From a virus, in the IMG/VR virus record IMGVR_UViG_3300044832_000098, positions 1-46,864 of that record: a stretch of 46,864 nucleotides of DNA. One strand, 5' to 3'. The translations under genes were made by a program, and so were the position numbers. Positions 1,034-43,453 of this stretch are shown here, in pieces. The notes under the pieces were generated by a model that saw only the letters and a list, made by a program, of their open reading frames with translations, searched no databases and was not told where the DNA came from. The stretch's first letter is position 1, and every line of letters begins with the position of its first letter.

Positions 1034-3232
1034 GTGGATAAGTTCTCCGACTACGTGAAGGCAGGATGGGCCCTCTGCGGGTTGCCGCGCGGCGCCAAAG
1101 GGCCGACATATCCTAATTGGCAGTTAAACCCGGTACCCCTAGATGCCGCGGATGGGTTAGACGGTGCCGGGTTGCTACACGCCTTGAGCGGCAGTTGTGC
1201 GCTTGACGTGGATGATATTGGTGCGGCGCGGGTTTGGCTTGGGGAGCGTGGGATTGATTTAGACGGATTGCTTGAGGCGAGGGACGCCGTTCAAATCGAC
1301 TCAGGAGCCCGTGGGCGGGCGAAGCTGCTGTACCGTCTCAAAGCCCCACTACGCACCTTTAAACCCCCCGGCAGCGGCTTAGAATTGCGCTGTGCGACGT
1401 TAAGCGGCACTTCCGTCCAAGATGCGCTTCCTCCAAGCTTGCATCCGAGCGGTCGACGCTATGCCTGGAAGTTCGCCGAGCCCCTCCTGGGCGATTGGAG
1501 TCCTCTGCCGGCCATTCCTGCCGCGCTCAAAACGGCCTGGCGTCAGTTGATAGCTGAAGAGCCGACACCCATGCCCTACACCAATGGCGACATGGACATT
1601 GCCCTAGAGAAACTATACGCCTGGATTGGCCCCCAGGACCCCAACATGGACTACGAGCGCTGGTATCGGATTGGCGCCAAATTGCACCATGCGACGCACG
1701 GGGCGGAAGAGGGGCTAGCCCTGTGGGACTCCTGGAGCGCCAAGGCGACGCGCAAGCGCGACGGGGCACCCATCTATGCCACGGCCAACTGCCGGGCGCA
1801 CTGGGTCTCTTTCTCGTCTCCTAAGGGCAAGATCGTGGCCACCTTGGACAACGAGCTGCCGGCGGACGCGGATGAGTTCGATGTGGTGGCACCCGCTCCT
1901 GCAGCCACGACCGAAGAGGCGATGACCCGCCAGACAGCTCAAGCCCGTAAGGATGCAATCGCCACACTCGAAGCGCGCGTGGTCTACGTGCTGGCCTCCG
2001 AGAAGTACTTTGACACGCAGCGCCATCAATTGATCGGCTCGGATTCAGCCCTTGAGCATCAATTCACATCGATGATGCCCCGCGGCAAAAACGGACGGAT
2101 GAATCCGGTGAAGATCCTCAAGCAAAGCACTACTAAAAGATTGGTTGAAGGGCTTGGGTTTCATCCGGGAGAGGGCGCGCTGTTTCAAGTCAAAGGCGAC
2201 ACTTACGCTAATTTGTATCGCAACCGACTGCCCGCTCCCCTTGAGCCTACGAAGCTTGAAGCGGAGAAAATCGAATGGTTGTTTGCTCGTATCGACGATG
2301 AAAATTATAGAACGTGGCTTAAGCAGTATTTCGGCCACGTCGCCCAGCATCCGGCGGTCAAGATAAAAACCGCCCCGTTGATTTGGTCGGAGGAGCAGCG
2401 CAACGGAAAAAGCACGCTGCTTAAAAGTATCCCGGCACTCCTAGTGGGGCGCGAGTTCTCGATCGATGTGAGCTATGACATGCTCAATAGTGGATTTAAC
2501 GATTATCTACAAGGCGCATGGCACGTAAATCTAGTGGAGTTTCGGGCCGGCTCGCGTGGCGAGCGCACGATGATCAATCATAAACTGAAAGCCTATATTG
2601 CGGATGATATGGTGGCGCTGCACCCCAAAGGGAGCAGAGGTTACGAGATGCCGAACCACGCTTTTGTAACCGCATCGAGTAATGAAGAGGATGCGGCGGC
2701 AATCGATAACAATGATAAGCGCTGGGGGATTCATGAAATGAAAGCCCCCGAGTACACCGAAAGCGAACGCCAATGGATCTATCATCAATTTTTGCTCGTG
2801 CCACGCAGCGCGGCGGTCCTGCGCCATTACTTTTTGCATGTCGATTTGACCGGATTCTATCCTGCAGGGAGCGCGCCGATGACGGAAGCTAAGCGACAGA
2901 TGGCTGCAGCATCCTTACCGATGGATACGGAATTGCTACTGACAATGTTCGAGGAGAAAGCTGAATTTTTTAATAAGGACGTAGTGATAACTAGCGACGT
3001 AGTGGCTTACGTACAGAAGCGGTTGCGCTTTGTTTCCGCTACTCGCATTGGCCGCATACTGGCTAAACCTCCTTTTAACGGTATCGTCAAGCGTTTCAAG
3101 GGCACTAACGGCAGACTTTTCAGAGGGGTGATTATTCGTAATCATTCACTATGGGACGCAGCTCCGCACGATAAAGTTATGGCCCATATCAATTTTGAAG
3201 ACGATTTGATTGAGGTTGATTTACTGTCTTAG
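1034..3232 (+). CDS. Primase-polymerase / SF3-type helicase (PriCT-2, DUF5906)
   Basis: A 732-residue replication protein starting at GTG. Residues 1-180 look like an archaeo-eukaryotic primase domain, with the metal-binding LDVDD (D58, D60) and the LPPSLHPSGRRYAW signature. A PriCT-2 linker follows at about 185-260 (YERWYRIGAKLHH, LWDSWSAKA). The C-terminal half is a D5-like helicase: Walker A NGKST (458-461), a hydrophobic strand ending in Glu for Walker B (VNLVEF), and the sensor-like FVTASSNEEDA followed by NNDKRW. It would prime and unwind the phage DNA for the family A polymerase encoded downstream. It replaces a separate DnaG/DnaB pair. The product ends EVDLLS. Confidence 0.88.
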   Translation: MDKFSDYVKAGWALCGLPRGAKGPTYPNWQLNPVPLDAADGLDGAGLLHALSGSCALDVDDIGAARVWLGERGIDLDGLLEARDAVQIDSGARGRAKLLYRLKAPLRTFKPPGSGLELRCATLSGTSVQDALPPSLHPSGRRYAWKFAEPLLGDWSPLPAIPAALKTAWRQLIAEEPTPMPYTNGDMDIALEKLYAWIGPQDPNMDYERWYRIGAKLHHATHGAEEGLALWDSWSAKATRKRDGAPIYATANCRAHWVSFSSPKGKIVATLDNELPADADEFDVVAPAPAATTEEAMTRQTAQARKDAIATLEARVVYVLASEKYFDTQRHQLIGSDSALEHQFTSMMPRGKNGRMNPVKILKQSTTKRLVEGLGFHPGEGALFQVKGDTYANLYRNRLPAPLEPTKLEAEKIEWLFARIDDENYRTWLKQYFGHVAQHPAVKIKTAPLIWSEEQRNGKSTLLKSIPALLVGREFSIDVSYDMLNSGFNDYLQGAWHVNLVEFRAGSRGERTMINHKLKAYIADDMVALHPKGSRGYEMPNHAFVTASSNEEDAAAIDNNDKRWGIHEMKAPEYTESERQWIYHQFLLVPRSAAVLRHYFLHVDLTGFYPAGSAPMTEAKRQMAAASLPMDTELLLTMFEEKAEFFNKDVVITSDVVAYVQKRLRFVSATRIGRILAKPPFNGIVKRFKGTNGRLFRGVIIRNHSLWDAAPHDKVMAHINFEDDLIEVDLLS

Positions 3233-9076: not shown

Positions 9077-11158
9077 ATGCGGCTGTTCGTTGACATCGAG
9101 TCGAGAAGCTCCGTGCCGATCCGGCAAGGCAATGTTAAATATTCGACAGCCGTCGAAATCATCATGCTGCAATGGGCGATTGATGATGGCCCCGTAACTG
9201 TTGAAGAGCTGCCTTCCCTCAAGTTCAAAAGCGCAGTCAAAAAAGCGGACGAAATCTGGGCTCACCAAGCCGAGTTCGACCGCACGATGTTGGAAACGTG
9301 CAGTTGGTGGCAAGCGCTCAAAGTCCCTGAAACCAAATGGCGCTGTACCGCAGCGCTCGCCCGGATGCATGGCCTGCCTGGGGGGCTTGATAAGCTCTGC
9401 ACCATTTTCAATCTGCCGCCCGATCAAGCGAAAACTGACGGTAAGGATCACATTCAGCTTTTCTGCAAGCCCAACAAAACGGGCATGTACAACGATCAGC
9501 GCTCGCACCCCAAGGAGTGGGCCGAGTTCCTGGCCTATGGTGGTCAGGACGTTATTGCAATGCGCCACATCCACGCCAAGATTCCTAAGTGGAATGCGAC
9601 GCCTCGTATGTGGGCTGTGTGGCGCTTGGATTTTCGGATGAATCATCGCGGGGTAGCGATGGATATCCCCCTCGCAGAGGGCGCCATAGAGGCCACCACG
9701 CGCGATAAGAGTAAGCTGGCGGCACGCACGGCTAAACTCTCAAAGATCCAAGCGAGCGGCTTGGAGGGTGATGAAAGCGCCGTGGAATCAACCACGCAGC
9801 GCGATCGGCTGCTGGCCTATATGTCGGACTTCGGTGTCAACTTGCCGGACTTAACCGCTGACACCGTAGAGAGGAGACTAGAAGATGAATCACTTCCCGA
9901 ACACATTAAAGAGCTTTTACGTATTCGCCAGAAAGCTTCCAAGACTAGTACGGCTAAGTATAGCCGCGTTATTAATCAGCATGTTGGTGGCCGTCTATTT
10001 AACTTGCTGGTTTTTTGCGGTGCTATGCGTACTGGCCGGTGGGCTGGTCGCACACTGCAGCCACAAAATCTACCTCGCCCTAGACACGAGACGTGGGATA
10101 TAGCGCATGCGATCAAACATTTCCAAAACGGCACGATTGACGCGTATGCTCCCGATGACGTTTTGGGGCTTGCGTCGAGCGCTCTGCGTGGACTCATTAT
10201 CTCGGAGCCTGGAAGACGCTTGGCTACCTCTGACCTTGCCAATATCGAAGGCCGATACATGGCATGGATTGCCGGTGAGGATTGGAAAATTGCCGCCTAC
10301 GAAGCTTATGATCGGAAAGAAGGGCCAGATTTATACAAGGTAGCTTATGCTCGTCCATTCGCAATTGATCCCAACTCTATCGCTGATGACGGCGATTACC
10401 GTAGGCAAGTTGGGAAGGTTATGGAACTCGCCTTACAATATTATGGTGGCGTCGGAGCCTTCTGCTCGATGGCGGAAACATATGGCCTCAATCTCAACGA
10501 GCTTGCCGTTACCGCCTGGCCCACAATACCGATTGACGTTAAGCGAACGGCTCAACAGCTTTGGCACAAGGCCATAAAGGCTAGACGTACATATGGACTC
10601 GAAGAACGAACGTGGATCGTCTGCCAGGCTTTGGTTCTCATGTGGCGGGCCGCGCATCCGATGGTGGTGGCGTTTTGGGAAACTCTGGATAATGCGATTA
10701 AGGACGCGATTAGAAGCCCTGGAAAGAAGTTCAAGGCAGGCGAGCGAATCACCGTGGACCGTGTTGGTAACTGGCTGCGAATTAAGCTCCCTAGCGGACG
10801 CTACCTCAACTACCCAGCGCCCCGAGTTAAAACCGACGGGTACTTCACTAACCGATCCTTCGTCGGAGTAAACCCCTATACCAAGCAATGGGGCCGGATT
10901 GCCACCTACAGTGGCAAAGATGCTGAAAATGTTTGCCAAGGCGGATGCGCGGATATTCTCATGGACGGATTACTGGCAGCGGACGAGGCCGGCTACAACC
11001 CGGTACTTTCTGTTCACGATGAAGTTATTTGCGAGTCTCCGGACAAGGATCACTATAGCGATAAGGGTTTAAGCCGTTTGATGGTTGAATCAAGTCTCTG
11101 GGCCGATGGGCTTCCACTAACCGCAAAAGGAAAGGTCACTTATCGTTATGCAAAATGA
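9077..11158 (+). CDS. Family A DNA polymerase with 3'-5' exonuclease domain
   Basis: 693 residues, usual for phage PolA enzymes. The N-terminal DnaQ-like exonuclease shows FVDIES (D6, E8), AHQAEFD (D68) and YGGQDV. The polymerase domain has GRWAGRTLQPQNLPRP, motif A SDLANIEGR (D386), the O-helix motif B RRQVGKVMELALQYYG (R442, K447) and motif C VHDEV (D648). All catalytic residues are present, so it should copy the phage genome with proofreading. Its 3' end overlaps a small cysteine-rich gene by 11 bases. The long frame at 9885-10103 inside it is a shadow. Confidence 0.95.
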   Translation: MRLFVDIESRSSVPIRQGNVKYSTAVEIIMLQWAIDDGPVTVEELPSLKFKSAVKKADEIWAHQAEFDRTMLETCSWWQALKVPETKWRCTAALARMHGLPGGLDKLCTIFNLPPDQAKTDGKDHIQLFCKPNKTGMYNDQRSHPKEWAEFLAYGGQDVIAMRHIHAKIPKWNATPRMWAVWRLDFRMNHRGVAMDIPLAEGAIEATTRDKSKLAARTAKLSKIQASGLEGDESAVESTTQRDRLLAYMSDFGVNLPDLTADTVERRLEDESLPEHIKELLRIRQKASKTSTAKYSRVINQHVGGRLFNLLVFCGAMRTGRWAGRTLQPQNLPRPRHETWDIAHAIKHFQNGTIDAYAPDDVLGLASSALRGLIISEPGRRLATSDLANIEGRYMAWIAGEDWKIAAYEAYDRKEGPDLYKVAYARPFAIDPNSIADDGDYRRQVGKVMELALQYYGGVGAFCSMAETYGLNLNELAVTAWPTIPIDVKRTAQQLWHKAIKARRTYGLEERTWIVCQALVLMWRAAHPMVVAFWETLDNAIKDAIRSPGKKFKAGERITVDRVGNWLRIKLPSGRYLNYPAPRVKTDGYFTNRSFVGVNPYTKQWGRIATYSGKDAENVCQGGCADILMDGLLAADEAGYNPVLSVHDEVICESPDKDHYSDKGLSRLMVESSLWADGLPLTAKGKVTYRYAK

Positions 11159-38869: not shown

Positions 38870-41071
38870 TTAGGGTCCTACGTGTGGGGGAACGGGTCCT
38901 GCTCCGGGCGCACCACCGGGGCTGCCGCCCGGCATGGCTCCGGGGGCAGCGCCCGGAGCGGGAGAGGGTGGCGCTGGCAGATCCGGCGCAACCAATGCAG
39001 CGGCATCCGCGGGCGAGATATCGCCTTTCAATGCAACGCTGATCTTGGGCCGTTGTGGCGGCGGCTGCGCACCCGCTCCGGGGCTTCCAGGCGGCGGCAC
39101 GCGCGGTACGAAACGATCCACATCGGTCTCGTCTCCAAAGCGACGCATGGTCTCGCTGATCAGTTCAGTGAGGGAGTCGGCCAGCGGTTTGTTGCCGGTA
39201 CCTAACGCTTGTTCAATTTCGCTAATCAGTTGGCGAATCAGCGGCAGAATGGTCGCCCACGCCTGCTGATCGGTTTGCATCTTAGGCTTACCCGTGGTGC
39301 CCGCGGCGATCGTGACTTCCACCATCGTGAACAAATCCTCGATCGACATACCCGGTTGCGGCAGATCGGCATCAGGATCGGGACCTAACCACATGGCCTT
39401 CGGCCCCGCCATGCGTTGCACTTCTTTCACCGTGTAGCACTGCAACGCCATCTCCGCGGTGTACTGCGCCAAATCGGTGAGCATCCATTCGAGGCAGTCG
39501 CGATCGGAGGTGGTGCGGGCGTTGGTGCCGGACTGCTGAATGTTGGCCTCGGTTGCCGTTTTAGGATTCCCCGGTCCGCTGATGGCGGCGGATAGTGCCT
39601 CTTGCACGCCGCTGATACGCTCCATGTCGTTTAAAATCAAGGTGGGATCAAAGAGCCGCATGTCGGTCTGCGGCACTGGCTTGGCTGCAAAGAGATTGGC
39701 GATGGGGGTATCCGGATCTGCCGGCTTTAACCCTACAAATTCTTGCAGCTTCGACTCGGATAATTTCTTAGCCTCAACATCATCCAGTTGCGATGCGTTG
39801 AACAACACCCCAGAAATCGAGCGCTCGCGTGTGATGCGAAAATTGGAGCGCACCCCGGAGTATTCATCCTGAAGTTTGTAAAGACGCCACGCCAAGCTTT
39901 GCGCATGACGCTGACCATCCACCTCATAGAACGAGAAGTAAAAGTACGGGTAGAAGCGGCTGGTCGGGTACGGCGGCTCAAAAGGTTTCTTGGCCCACTT
40001 CTTCACCCCGTCAATGGCAGTGCGAATATGCTTATCGGTTCGGTACCACCGCTCGATCACACGTAAGAAGGGCTGCGATTCGGCCTCGCTGGTCGAGGTG
40101 GTGAAGGCTTGCGCGGCTTCCGCGGTCAGCATGCCCTGCGGCAATACGTTGTCGATATCCCGCGCGGTCAACTCTTTGGGCTGGCTTTGGTAGTACTTTT
40201 TCGCCTTCTTGATGTCCTCCGGCTTTAAATCCGGAAACATCGTGAGTGCTTCCTCTTCATCGACGTACATTTCGTTGCCAATCCAGTTGGCGTCCAAGTA
40301 ATCGGCTATACACTCCACATCGGTCGAAACTTGAATATTCTCCGTCTTGATGAAATCGATCACGAACAGCTTGTTGACCGATAGTTCAAGTTTCTCTTCC
40401 AGCGCTTCGATCAGCGCCTCTTTTTCCGATATCTCCGCGGCTCTGGTGTCCGGGTCGCGATCGTCCGGGTCCTCCAGCATTTTTTGTTGCGCAGTTAAGC
40501 GCTCGTGTAGCTCGCGCGCATCGTTCAAAGCGGTTTCGACTTCTGCGTTCGGAACCTTCTCGGATACCTGCAAGCATTTGAACCACCCTTCAGCATTCGA
40601 GAGTACGGAGCGCACGCCCTTGCGCGCCGCTTTTTTCAACTTGCCGCGCATCCACAATTTGGAGATGACTATCTGCAGCGTGCGGGCGAAGGCATCCATC
40701 TGCGAGGTGTTGGAATCATCGACTTGCGCCGCTTTGGTAACGGAGACATCCGGGTCGCGAGCGTACAAAAGAGCCACCAGGATATCGATAAAGGCACCAA
40801 TGAGGTTGGTGGTGACCGCCCACGATAGATCCGATGTACCAGCCGCGTAACGTCGATCGATTGCTACCTGCTTGCGGAAGTTCTCATCAAATTTTCTGTC
40901 ACGGTCGTACTCCTTGAAGAACTTGGTGACGAGTTTTTCCTCCTGCTCCGGGGTGAGTTGATCGTCCTCATCCGGCGAGTCGGCCGATTGCATGCCATCG
41001 TTTTGCCGCGGGTCATCGAACACACCCGCGAGTCCCGCCGCCACACCGCCGCTAGGAGAGACCGCGGCCAC
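38870..41071 (-). CDS. Portal protein, P22 type
   Basis: 733 residues from GTG 41071. Features of P22-like portals: TKFFKEYDRDRKFDENFRKQVAIDRRYAAG near the start, long helical clip and stem region (KMLEDPDDRDPDTRAAEISEKEALIEALEEKLELSV), YDANWIGNE-like wing residues, FEPPYPTSRFYPYFYFSFYEVDGQRHAQSLAW and KLQDEYSGVRSNFRITRERS in the central domain. The Pro/Gly/Ala-rich last 70 residues are low-complexity. Twelve copies would form the DNA entry vertex and dock TerL. Confidence 0.88.
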   Translation of the reverse strand: MAAVSPSGGVAAGLAGVFDDPRQNDGMQSADSPDEDDQLTPEQEEKLVTKFFKEYDRDRKFDENFRKQVAIDRRYAAGTSDLSWAVTTNLIGAFIDILVALLYARDPDVSVTKAAQVDDSNTSQMDAFARTLQIVISKLWMRGKLKKAARKGVRSVLSNAEGWFKCLQVSEKVPNAEVETALNDARELHERLTAQQKMLEDPDDRDPDTRAAEISEKEALIEALEEKLELSVNKLFVIDFIKTENIQVSTDVECIADYLDANWIGNEMYVDEEEALTMFPDLKPEDIKKAKKYYQSQPKELTARDIDNVLPQGMLTAEAAQAFTTSTSEAESQPFLRVIERWYRTDKHIRTAIDGVKKWAKKPFEPPYPTSRFYPYFYFSFYEVDGQRHAQSLAWRLYKLQDEYSGVRSNFRITRERSISGVLFNASQLDDVEAKKLSESKLQEFVGLKPADPDTPIANLFAAKPVPQTDMRLFDPTLILNDMERISGVQEALSAAISGPGNPKTATEANIQQSGTNARTTSDRDCLEWMLTDLAQYTAEMALQCYTVKEVQRMAGPKAMWLGPDPDADLPQPGMSIEDLFTMVEVTIAAGTTGKPKMQTDQQAWATILPLIRQLISEIEQALGTGNKPLADSLTELISETMRRFGDETDVDRFVPRVPPPGSPGAGAQPPPQRPKISVALKGDISPADAAALVAPDLPAPPSPAPGAAPGAMPGGSPGGAPGAGPVPPHVGP

Positions 41072-41072
41072 G

Positions 41073-41333
41073 CTACTTCAGCAGCTCGGCATTGATTTGG
41101 TGTTGGCGTGCCACCCTATTGGCATCGGCTACCGCTTGCTGCTCTGGAGTGAGTGCGGGGGTTGTGAGTGGTTCCGTGGGTTCTAAAGGCGCTGGCACGG
41201 CTTCTCGATCGATAAGCGGAGAGGGGAGCGCACTAGTGGCGCCTGACGCGTTAGGGATCGTTCCGCCGCCTAAACGGCGCAACGTCCTGGCACGCTCCTG
41301 TGTCGACATTCCTTGAGGGGTGCTGTATTTCAT
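41073..41333 (-). CDS. Small protein between TerL nuclease and portal genes
   Basis: 86 residues, ATGA overlap with the TerL nuclease gene. Low-complexity N-terminus (STQERARTLRRLGGGTI) and Pro/Ala linker, then a short helix (EQQAVADANRVARQHQINAELL). May be a packaging or head accessory protein; no family is recognised. Confidence 0.6.
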   Translation of the reverse strand: MKYSTPQGMSTQERARTLRRLGGGTIPNASGATSALPSPLIDREAVPAPLEPTEPLTTPALTPEQQAVADANRVARQHQINAELLK

Positions 41334-42010
41334 GAGAAAAACCTAACCTTGGGCTTCTCGGAACCGGAGTTGAATTCGAGCCATTTGGCCGAGAAAGGAA
41401 CCAGTATGTCCCTCGGTTTCTCATAAGGCAAACTGGCGTTTGACATCTTGTCGACCCCACGGCCGATTAACCCACAAACGTCCACCGCATCGTCGTTCTT
41501 CCCGCCGGGGAATCGGCACAGTTGATCGATCACGTGATCGGTCCATTTGCGTCTTAAAGGGAAGTGAATCGTCCTAGCAGTTGCTCGCGCGTGGAAAGCT
41601 TGGACCTTCATCGATTTATCGTCTATAGAGGGTAACGGCTCAATGGAGACATAACGCTGCGAGCGGCGCATGGCATCACGGATTGAAGGGCCAATCGCTT
41701 TGTCGATCAACCCGCCTTCGTTCCAATGGCGAATAGGCTTGTAGAGTCCGATCAATTTGATGAACGCCTTGATGCCTTCATCTGTTTCGCATTGCCGAAA
41801 GAACCAATCCACCGCCCATAAGTCCCCGATACGATCCATCCCCCACATGCCGTGTTCGGTAAAGTCGGGTTCTTTTTTGCCGAATTCCACTTCCATAGTC
41901 GCGTAATCGGATGCCGAGTACATCTTCAAACTTAAAGGAAGGGCCTTATCCTCGTAAGGTAGTAGATAGGCGTAGCTCATGCTAAGGCTCGCACCCCCTG
42001 CCGCATTCAC
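41330..42010 (-). CDS. terL: Terminase large subunit, nuclease part (separate reading frame)
   Basis: 226 residues from GTG 42010; ATG 41980 is an alternative. SASDYAT (D35) is the first RNase H-like metal ligand; FTEHGMWGMDRIGDLWAVDWF follows as in TerL; HWNEGG (E98) is the second acid; KNDDAVDVCGLI (D173-D177) the third. This is the complete C-terminal nuclease that cuts concatemers. It lies five bases from the stop of the ATPase gene and in another frame, so in this sequence TerL is made from two genes or through a frameshift. About 25 residues between the two halves have no counterpart in ordinary TerL linkers. Confidence 0.85.
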   Translation of the reverse strand: MNAAGGASLSMSYAYLLPYEDKALPLSLKMYSASDYATMEVEFGKKEPDFTEHGMWGMDRIGDLWAVDWFFRQCETDEGIKAFIKLIGLYKPIRHWNEGGLIDKAIGPSIRDAMRRSQRYVSIEPLPSIDDKSMKVQAFHARATARTIHFPLRRKWTDHVIDQLCRFPGGKNDDAVDVCGLIGRGVDKMSNASLPYEKPRDILVPFSAKWLEFNSGSEKPKVRFFS

Positions 42011-42015
42011 ACAGA

Positions 42016-43065
42016 TTAACTGTCAGCCCTTGGACGATCAGCGTTGTAGTATTGAAACATTTCCCGGTTGAAATGTACCCCGCCGTATGGAGCGGGGCGC
42101 TGCTGAAAGAGAGCGGCCCAGGTTCGGGCAGCTCGCGGGTTATCGCGCCACGTAGACCAATGCTCGCGCGGCCAGAACTGCGGCCAGAGAAAATCGCCAA
42201 TTTTTCGGTTGAGTACATCATCCTCGCGCTCCGCTTCGGCAGGGATGCACAATACATCCCAAGTCTGCCCGTCGCGGCAGTGTATCAACCCGGATTCACC
42301 CTCGTAGTTTTCCGGCAAGATTGCACCCACCAAATCATCCTCGTGCCATCTTGTCATAATCAACACCACGGACATCCATGGCTTAGCGCGCGTCATCGCC
42401 GTGTCGATGTACTCGGAGTAAATCTTCTCCCTCACGGTGGATGAATCCGCCTGCTCGCGATTGGCCACCGGATCATCGAGTATCAGAAGGTCGCATCTGT
42501 TACCTGTAATGCCGGCCAACATTCCTGCAGCCATCATGGAAGAGCCGTTGGTCAAGGACCAATCATCGATCGCGCGCTGATCCTCCGCCAGTGTGGGTTT
42601 GTCTGGCCATAGCGCAACCCAACGCGGGTCCCTGACAATAGCGCGCACCTTGCGGCTTTGCTTCGCGGCGATCCCCGTGGCGTAACTGCCAAGAATCACC
42701 TGGGTGTTGCGCTTCCTACCCATCGCCCACGAGGACCCTACGACCGACGCGTATGTGGACTTGGCGCTACCCGGCGGGGCTAGAATAATCTGCCGGCCGC
42801 GCTTGGCTTCGATACAGCACTGGATCTTCTGCATCATAAGGGTGTGGTGAATCGCAAGTCTAGGCTCCACCGGCTCGTACGATGTAGGCGTATCTTCGAA
42901 ACGATTGACGAGCTTGCCGGTAACTGGGTCCTCTTCGTCCTCGACATCAATCAGGGGGACGCCTGGAATGTCGATACTTTGAGAATACTCAATCAGATTC
43001 GCACGGGCGCGCTTGCGGCGAAGATACTCCTGCGCCGCCCACTCCGGGCTGACAGCGGTTGTCAC
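42016..43065 (-). CDS. terL: Terminase large subunit, ATPase part
   Basis: 349 residues from GTG 43065. Walker A APPGSAKST (96-104), the adenine-binding QxxR region before it, Walker B DLLILDD (192-198) and the coupling motif MTRWHEDD (237-244) are all present, so the packaging motor should be intact. The frame stops at TAA after FQYYNADRPRADS, precisely where the nuclease domain begins in other TerL proteins (Y-x-x-SDYA). It is the second gene of the late operon and packages DNA through the portal. Confidence 0.9.
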   Translation of the reverse strand: MTTAVSPEWAAQEYLRRKRARANLIEYSQSIDIPGVPLIDVEDEEDPVTGKLVNRFEDTPTSYEPVEPRLAIHHTLMMQKIQCCIEAKRGRQIILAPPGSAKSTYASVVGSSWAMGRKRNTQVILGSYATGIAAKQSRKVRAIVRDPRWVALWPDKPTLAEDQRAIDDWSLTNGSSMMAAGMLAGITGNRCDLLILDDPVANREQADSSTVREKIYSEYIDTAMTRAKPWMSVVLIMTRWHEDDLVGAILPENYEGESGLIHCRDGQTWDVLCIPAEAEREDDVLNRKIGDFLWPQFWPREHWSTWRDNPRAARTWAALFQQRPAPYGGVHFNREMFQYYNADRPRADS

Positions 43066-43108: not shown

Positions 43109-43453
43109 CTATTGTAGCAAGGGATCAATGTCCGGGAAAGAATCTACAGGACCGTGGTTTATTCCGCGGGAAACGGTAACAATAGATTGACTTGGACCAA
43201 TACGCGGTAGTTGTTTTTGCTCAATTATTGAAACTAACGCCTCATCGCTCATGGATGCGAGCAAGGCCGCTTGTCTGCGAGATGCTGGTACCTGAATAAT
43301 CGCCTGGGAGGGTTTCCCGTAGCCCCGATCTAAAATCGCCTCCGCGGCGCGGATCTTATCGCGATCCTCCACAGCGGTTTCCATAGTGTCGGCCAGAAGC
43401 TCAATCGCCCTTGGACCGTGCGTGCGCGCCAGCTCGTCAATTCCTTTGCTCAT
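43109..43453 (-). CDS. terS: Terminase small subunit-like protein
   Basis: 114 residues. GIDELARTHGPRAIELLADTME and RAAEAILDRGYGKPSQAI match the small DUF5681-like proteins that precede TerL in many phages. The C-terminus is FPDIDPLLQ, sharing the I-D-P-L-L-x ending with two unrelated small proteins of this phage and similar to the SSB tail. It is the first gene of the leftward operon, so it probably recognises packaging DNA. Confidence 0.75.
   Translation of the reverse strand: MSKGIDELARTHGPRAIELLADTMETAVEDRDKIRAAEAILDRGYGKPSQAIIQVPASRRQAALLASMSDEALVSIIEQKQLPRIGPSQSIVTVSRGINHGPVDSFPDIDPLLQ

Follow-up and report, generated by a model that had tools for sequence, protein, structure and literature searches.

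The window, here the whole 46,864-base stretch of virus record IMGVR_UViG_3300044832_000098, carries a large terminase (TerL) that is encoded by two consecutive genes on its minus strand. The upstream gene (42016..43065, minus strand; GTG start at 43065, TAA stop at 42018-42016) encodes a 349-residue ATPase half, identified by Pfam, PHROG and its conserved motifs. It matches Pfam Terminase_6N (E 1.1e-11; 45.2 bits against a cut-off of 22) as well as PHROG terminase large subunit families. The downstream gene (41330..41980, minus strand; preferred start ATG at 41980) encodes a 216-residue nuclease half with the RNase-H fold of TerL. It aligns with profile positions 558-695 of PHROG 38, terminase large subunit (E 3.6e-11), and had no Pfam match. 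Between the two lies a 35-nt intergenic spacer (41981..42015) that holds no inserted gene.

The flanking genes supply a packaging context. An 86-aa ORF without a PHROG match (41073..41333, minus strand) runs in the same direction, its ATG overlapping the nuclease stop by 4 nt, and the portal gene is next in the cassette (38870..41071, minus strand; PHROG 12082 portal protein, E 1.8e-4). The split TerL lies near this portal-like gene, and its packaging role is a predicted one. Directly upstream of the ATPase gene, a 114-aa ORF (43109..43453, minus strand) is a small terminase candidate by position only; it matches PHROG families of unknown function and had no Pfam match. Elsewhere in the window, 9077-11158 and 1034-3232 encode a DNA polymerase and a primase (PHROG 17 and 1156), a replication module of the phage's own, and a tRNA search of the window found none.

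The two halves and the position of the break

The nuclease gene most likely starts at the ATG at 41980 (MSYAYLLPYEDKALPLSL) and not at the in-frame GTG (42008..42010, minus strand) proposed in the first-pass annotation. The ATG is common to the window and three relatives (L002, L010 and L084), which differ from the window in sequence upstream of it and in which the reading there is different or closed. Because it is shared while the preceding stretch diverges, the ATG was taken as the start; the GTG, whose frame upstream of 41980 is unconserved in relatives, is possible but less supported and probably wrong. The coordinates and frame offset of the two ORFs had otherwise been given correctly in that annotation, which left the strand unstated (minus for both).

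The choice of start codon determines the length of the linker. From the QQRP motif of the ATPase half to the nuclease motif YGASDYA (YSASDYA in the window), the two tails of the window add up to 25 + 20 = 45 residues, against 35-36 in the fused relatives L018-L021. The excess is therefore about 9 residues with the ATG start, and the earlier estimate of about 25 was too high because it was based on a start codon without support from relatives. Across the split set, the ATPase runs on for 23-31 residues past QQRP (median 25), and in the nuclease 15-25 residues (median 18) precede YGASDYA. Alignments place the break near residues 346-352 of the fused relative L019; in a structural model of this protein (pLDDT 86.9), which aligns with T4 gp17 and HK97 TerL across most of its length, the first nuclease strand begins at residue 359. 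As judged from alignments and model, the break falls in the interdomain linker. The hinge of T4 TerL spans about residues 361-383, and the offsets in alignment and model suggest that the break position corresponds to it.

HMMER profiles (A1 and A2) matched no PDB sequence, and fold comparison was used for this reason. The AlphaFold model of the window nuclease (mean pLDDT 82) represents a full TerL RNase-H domain and matches the nuclease domains of RB49 gp17 (3c6a), G20c (5m1q) and T4 gp17. The initial proposal of a TerL divided at its linker, with the ATPase and the nuclease in separate genes, is thus borne out by Pfam, PHROG and fold, and also by the relatives described below.

Split and fused relatives

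Relatives were collected by scanning viral contigs for the ATPase and the nuclease and, in one further scan, genome contigs, with at most 80 loci taken per scan. A nuclease match was present at 131 loci; removal of 16 second copies of the same contig and of L136, which had no ATPase match, left 114. In this sample, which was chosen by similarity to the window and in which contigs of different IMG/VR records are possibly not independent, the same split is present in 79 of the 114 contigs among the matches listed, and TerL is fused in the other 35. The nearest relatives of the window are all split (among the matches listed), which is the outcome of the comparison with close relatives that had been suggested as a check. 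Four split contigs (L002, L089, L084 and L010) share the ATG of the window and have a TAA stop at almost the same position. The fused set includes L018-L021, three MAG contigs and more distant viruses; the genome-contig scan returned only three relatives, all fused (two Acidobacteriaceae and one Rhizorhabdus MAG contig), and a single TerL-sized CDS is found in the cultured relatives Ruegeria phage 45A6, Rhizobium phage RHph_N65 and Microcystis phage Mwe-JY13. This comparison confirms that the TerL split is real and conserved, beyond what chance would give.

A quick tree was built from 80 rows (61 split, 19 fused), leaving out 25 of the 114 contigs that were short (ATPase <140 aa or nuclease <150 aa) or surplus fused outgroups, and 9 near copies. 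On this tree the split/fused label has to change three times, one of these changes being forced by well-supported branches, and two split contigs (L014 and L159) sit near the base beside fused rows. Constraining all split rows to one clade was not rejected (AU p 0.80, compared without four long outgroup rows), and it improved the likelihood by 31.7 lnL units over the quick free tree. These results allow a single fission but do not prove it.

A variable junction between the halves

The junction varies widely in architecture. A script that depends on the motif pattern assigned a nuclease start in 68 of the 79 split contigs, leaving 11 without one, and these 68 junctions range from a 26-nt overlap to a 456-nt spacer. 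The genes overlap by 4 nt in 37 and by 8-26 nt in five, and are separated by 3-39 nt in 10 and by 97-456 nt in 16; all three frame classes occur (43, 16 and 9 of 68). When tested without the motif pattern, a 4-nt NTGA stop/start overlap was found in 41 of the 79. The odd long overlaps of L147, L150 and L159 could be assembly errors.

ORFs were examined at 19 loci with long junctions. These junctions are usually filled by an ORF whose start lies on the ATPase stop and whose end lies on the nuclease start; L114 and L146 lacked an ORF of 35 aa. Genes for endonuclease VII (Pfam PF02945) lie at the break in five of the 79 split contigs among the matches listed (L022, L133 and L154, with L132 and L156 as near copies of the last two), and the ORF at the L003 junction belongs to PHROG 3342, of unknown function. 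As read from these sequences, the gap between the TerL genes is a spot of gene gain and loss in several lineages. Other small ORFs were noted between the halves: an 82-aa ORF in L121 (828-1076), which by eye resembles a HAD-type phosphatase and had no Pfam match, and a related group in L011, L093 and L095 ending in WKQCERCAKSKLIHxL.

Recombination has left further traces at this site. Identity between L107 and L154 is 99.5% on one side of the junction and 98.8% on the other, but the halves lie 47 nt apart in L107 and 449 nt apart in L154, and identity is lower in the roughly 100 nt flanking the junction. L154 and L156, which come from different metagenomes, both have a nuclease frame that is interrupted some 100 nt past its start, within a diverged tract that adjoins the endonuclease VII gene. 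L107 and L109 share nucleases that are 97% identical and ATPases that are 76% identical, and a 1.4-kb stretch of near 100% DNA identity between them begins about 100 nt inside the nuclease gene. Because these identities are unequal, and because the correlation between ATPase and nuclease identity is 0.47 over 1,830 split pairs, the halves appear to have been exchanged separately in some lineages. Two other pairs (L004/L116 and L095/L100) also have unequal half identities but no sharp DNA breakpoint.

The endonuclease genes raise the question of origin. Insertion of a homing endonuclease, as in Aeh1 nrdA, may have made the split, the endonuclease then being lost in most lineages, with the 35-nt spacer of the window as its scar; this origin, which is compatible with fission, is possible but rather doubtful. 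Endonuclease VII genes do sit at the break, and the contrast between the L107 and L154 junctions with their diverged flanks is what co-conversion would give. However, the endonucleases occur in nested lineages whose own nearest relatives lack them, and it is therefore at least equally likely that they entered a site that had been split before.

The varied frames bear on whether a fused TerL could be made after all, by ribosomal frameshifting, readthrough or bypassing. Relative to the ATPase gene, the nuclease is read in the -1 frame in the window and at the 41 NTGA loci, as a -1 shift needs, and a -1 slip just before the ATPase stop had been proposed initially. No X_XXY_YYZ slippery heptamer was found within 15 nt of any of the 41 overlaps, however, and none was seen ahead of the ATPase stop in the window, so that the features of a programmed -1 frameshift are lacking. 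Other relatives, including close ones, have in-frame stops, different offsets and spacers, or whole genes between the halves, and no single mechanism fits them all. The variety of frames and spacers therefore means that neither a -1 slip nor a one-base error explains the set, and production of a fused protein is quite improbable. A TerL split by an intron was also considered and rejected, as no recognisable intron was present at the junctions scanned: cmscan of the window, L003, L011 and L022 gave no Rfam match at gathering score.

Probable function of a TerL without a covalent link

Both halves retain the residues expected of an active enzyme. The window ATPase has conserved Walker A (APPGSAKST), Walker B (LLILDD) and C-motif (MTRW) sequences. 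Conservation was scored in the tree set, across its 61 split rows: K102 is conserved in 58 of 58 filled rows and TRW in 61 of 61, and the exceptions in Walker B are an alanine at D197 and a valine at D198, each in one of 60 filled rows. In the nuclease, D25 is conserved in 60 of 60 filled rows and E88, D163, D164 and D167 in all 61. This residue alignment agrees with the first-pass annotation, which had stated that both halves keep their catalytic motifs. Furthermore, in each of the 13 pairs tested, pN is lower than pS for the ATPase half as well as for the nuclease half (pN 0.002-0.253; pS 0.075-0.843), and purifying selection acts on both halves. The invariant catalytic residues and the low pN across the clade make it very unlikely that the nuclease is a dying remnant replaced by another nuclease, even if the broken nuclease frame in L154 and L156 would fit such decay. 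A sequencing or assembly error, which had been raised as a one-base explanation for the window, a single contig, can be dismissed given the same break in 78 other contigs, some with other offsets and four with TAA and ATG placed nearly as in the window.

The evidence points strongly to a real fission of a T4-type TerL into coupled cistrons whose two products would together form the packaging motor. In this model, the ancestor of the phage clade would have had a one-chain T4-type (Terminase_6N) large terminase, and its gene would have come apart within the linker that joins the ATPase domain to the RNase-H nuclease domain. The pieces would since have been kept as consecutive, translationally coupled cistrons, and the two polypeptides, of 349 and about 216 residues, would bind each other non-covalently and act as the packaging motor. 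The NTGA overlap in 41 of the 79 contigs is the arrangement seen in coupled translation. For the window phage, we infer separate translation, association of the halves and a function in packaging.

A two-gene motor can work, since phages that encode one have been isolated on their host. According to passages of the BillyTP and BlueShadow papers, most Arthrobacter phages of cluster AY carry the TerL ATPase and the TerL nuclease as two consecutive genes, and records of AY phages and of some Gordonia phages (e.g. Nyceirae) are annotated in this way. The first-pass description of a two-gene motor as rare is fair, but such a motor is neither unique to the window phage nor unprecedented. As in the window, the ATPase and nuclease domains of the AY and Gordonia phages lie on consecutive genes; theirs stand between TerS and portal and overlap by 17-20 nt. 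The BillyTP nuclease belongs to Pfam TerL_nuclease (PF20441), whereas the window TerL is not of that family, and BLASTP of BillyTP TerL against the window halves gave no meaningful similarity (E 0.42 and 0.028). These differences argue for fission in the window clade independently of that in the AY and Gordonia phages, and the two cases together suggest convergence. The window clade thus holds a conserved, functional-looking two-gene large terminase, apparently independent of the known, little-studied cases; no report of a split Terminase_6N TerL was found in the searched literature, which was thin on subscription journals.

Comparison with T4 is informative on how the halves might cooperate. 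The window TerL shares a homologous ATPase and an RNase-H nuclease fold with D, E and D residues with the one-chain T4-type TerL (gp17; Terminase_6N). The T4-type enzymes, L018-L021 and Mwe-JY13 (a single TerL CDS) are one polypeptide, whereas the window has separate reading frames, and its TerL is therefore described as a split derivative and not as a canonical TerL. Passages of PMC9958956 describe a complementary surface of >1000 square angstrom between the ATPase and nuclease domains of T4 gp17, which by analogy suggests a natural docking surface for separate halves. The same source describes the T4 hinge as essential, a flexible connection that couples the ATPase to the DNA-moving C-domain, and reports that the domains keep their activities when separated while translocation is lost. 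The clade must either hold its halves tightly or not need a covalent hinge. A true two-component motor, in which the ATPase ring translocates DNA while the nuclease is attached through surface contacts alone or is bound for cutting only, and in which the nuclease is exchanged between phages as an independent module, is a tentative and less probable form of this idea. If correct, it would contradict the T4-derived view that a covalent hinge is required for ATP hydrolysis to be coupled to the movement of DNA. The T4 hinge model becomes directly testable in this clade, a large natural group of T4-type terminases that lack the covalent link.

Split essential enzymes whose halves reassemble are known from T4-like phages: PMC2988022 describes, in the passages concerned, Aeh1 nrdA (mobE), T4 gene 60 (mobA) and gene 43 of phages 25 and 44RR, with a homing endonuclease at the break in some of these genes in pieces. 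The window differs in having no endonuclease at its break; five of the 79 split contigs among the matches listed have one there. With its overlaps, spacers, inserted genes and endonucleases, the junction offers a natural series of states in which the breakage of a phage gene and the later use of the broken site can be studied.

TerL genes with introns or inteins have been described from Bastillevirinae, Campylobacter phage IBB_35 and mycobacteriophages, the last with inteins in the ATPase domain. They are likewise targets of mobile elements but are spliced to one product, whereas the window junction has no Rfam intron. An intein at the split was considered and rejected: the only intein-like inserts are in L022 (3058-4821) and in the ATPase gene of L109, where they lie exactly at the TerL C-motif, before TRW and away from the split. 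Nested out of frame in this insert is an endonuclease VII-like ORF (L022 3951-4415, PHROG E 5.5e-26; by eye in L109), and such an out-of-frame nuclease within an intein-like insert looks unusual.
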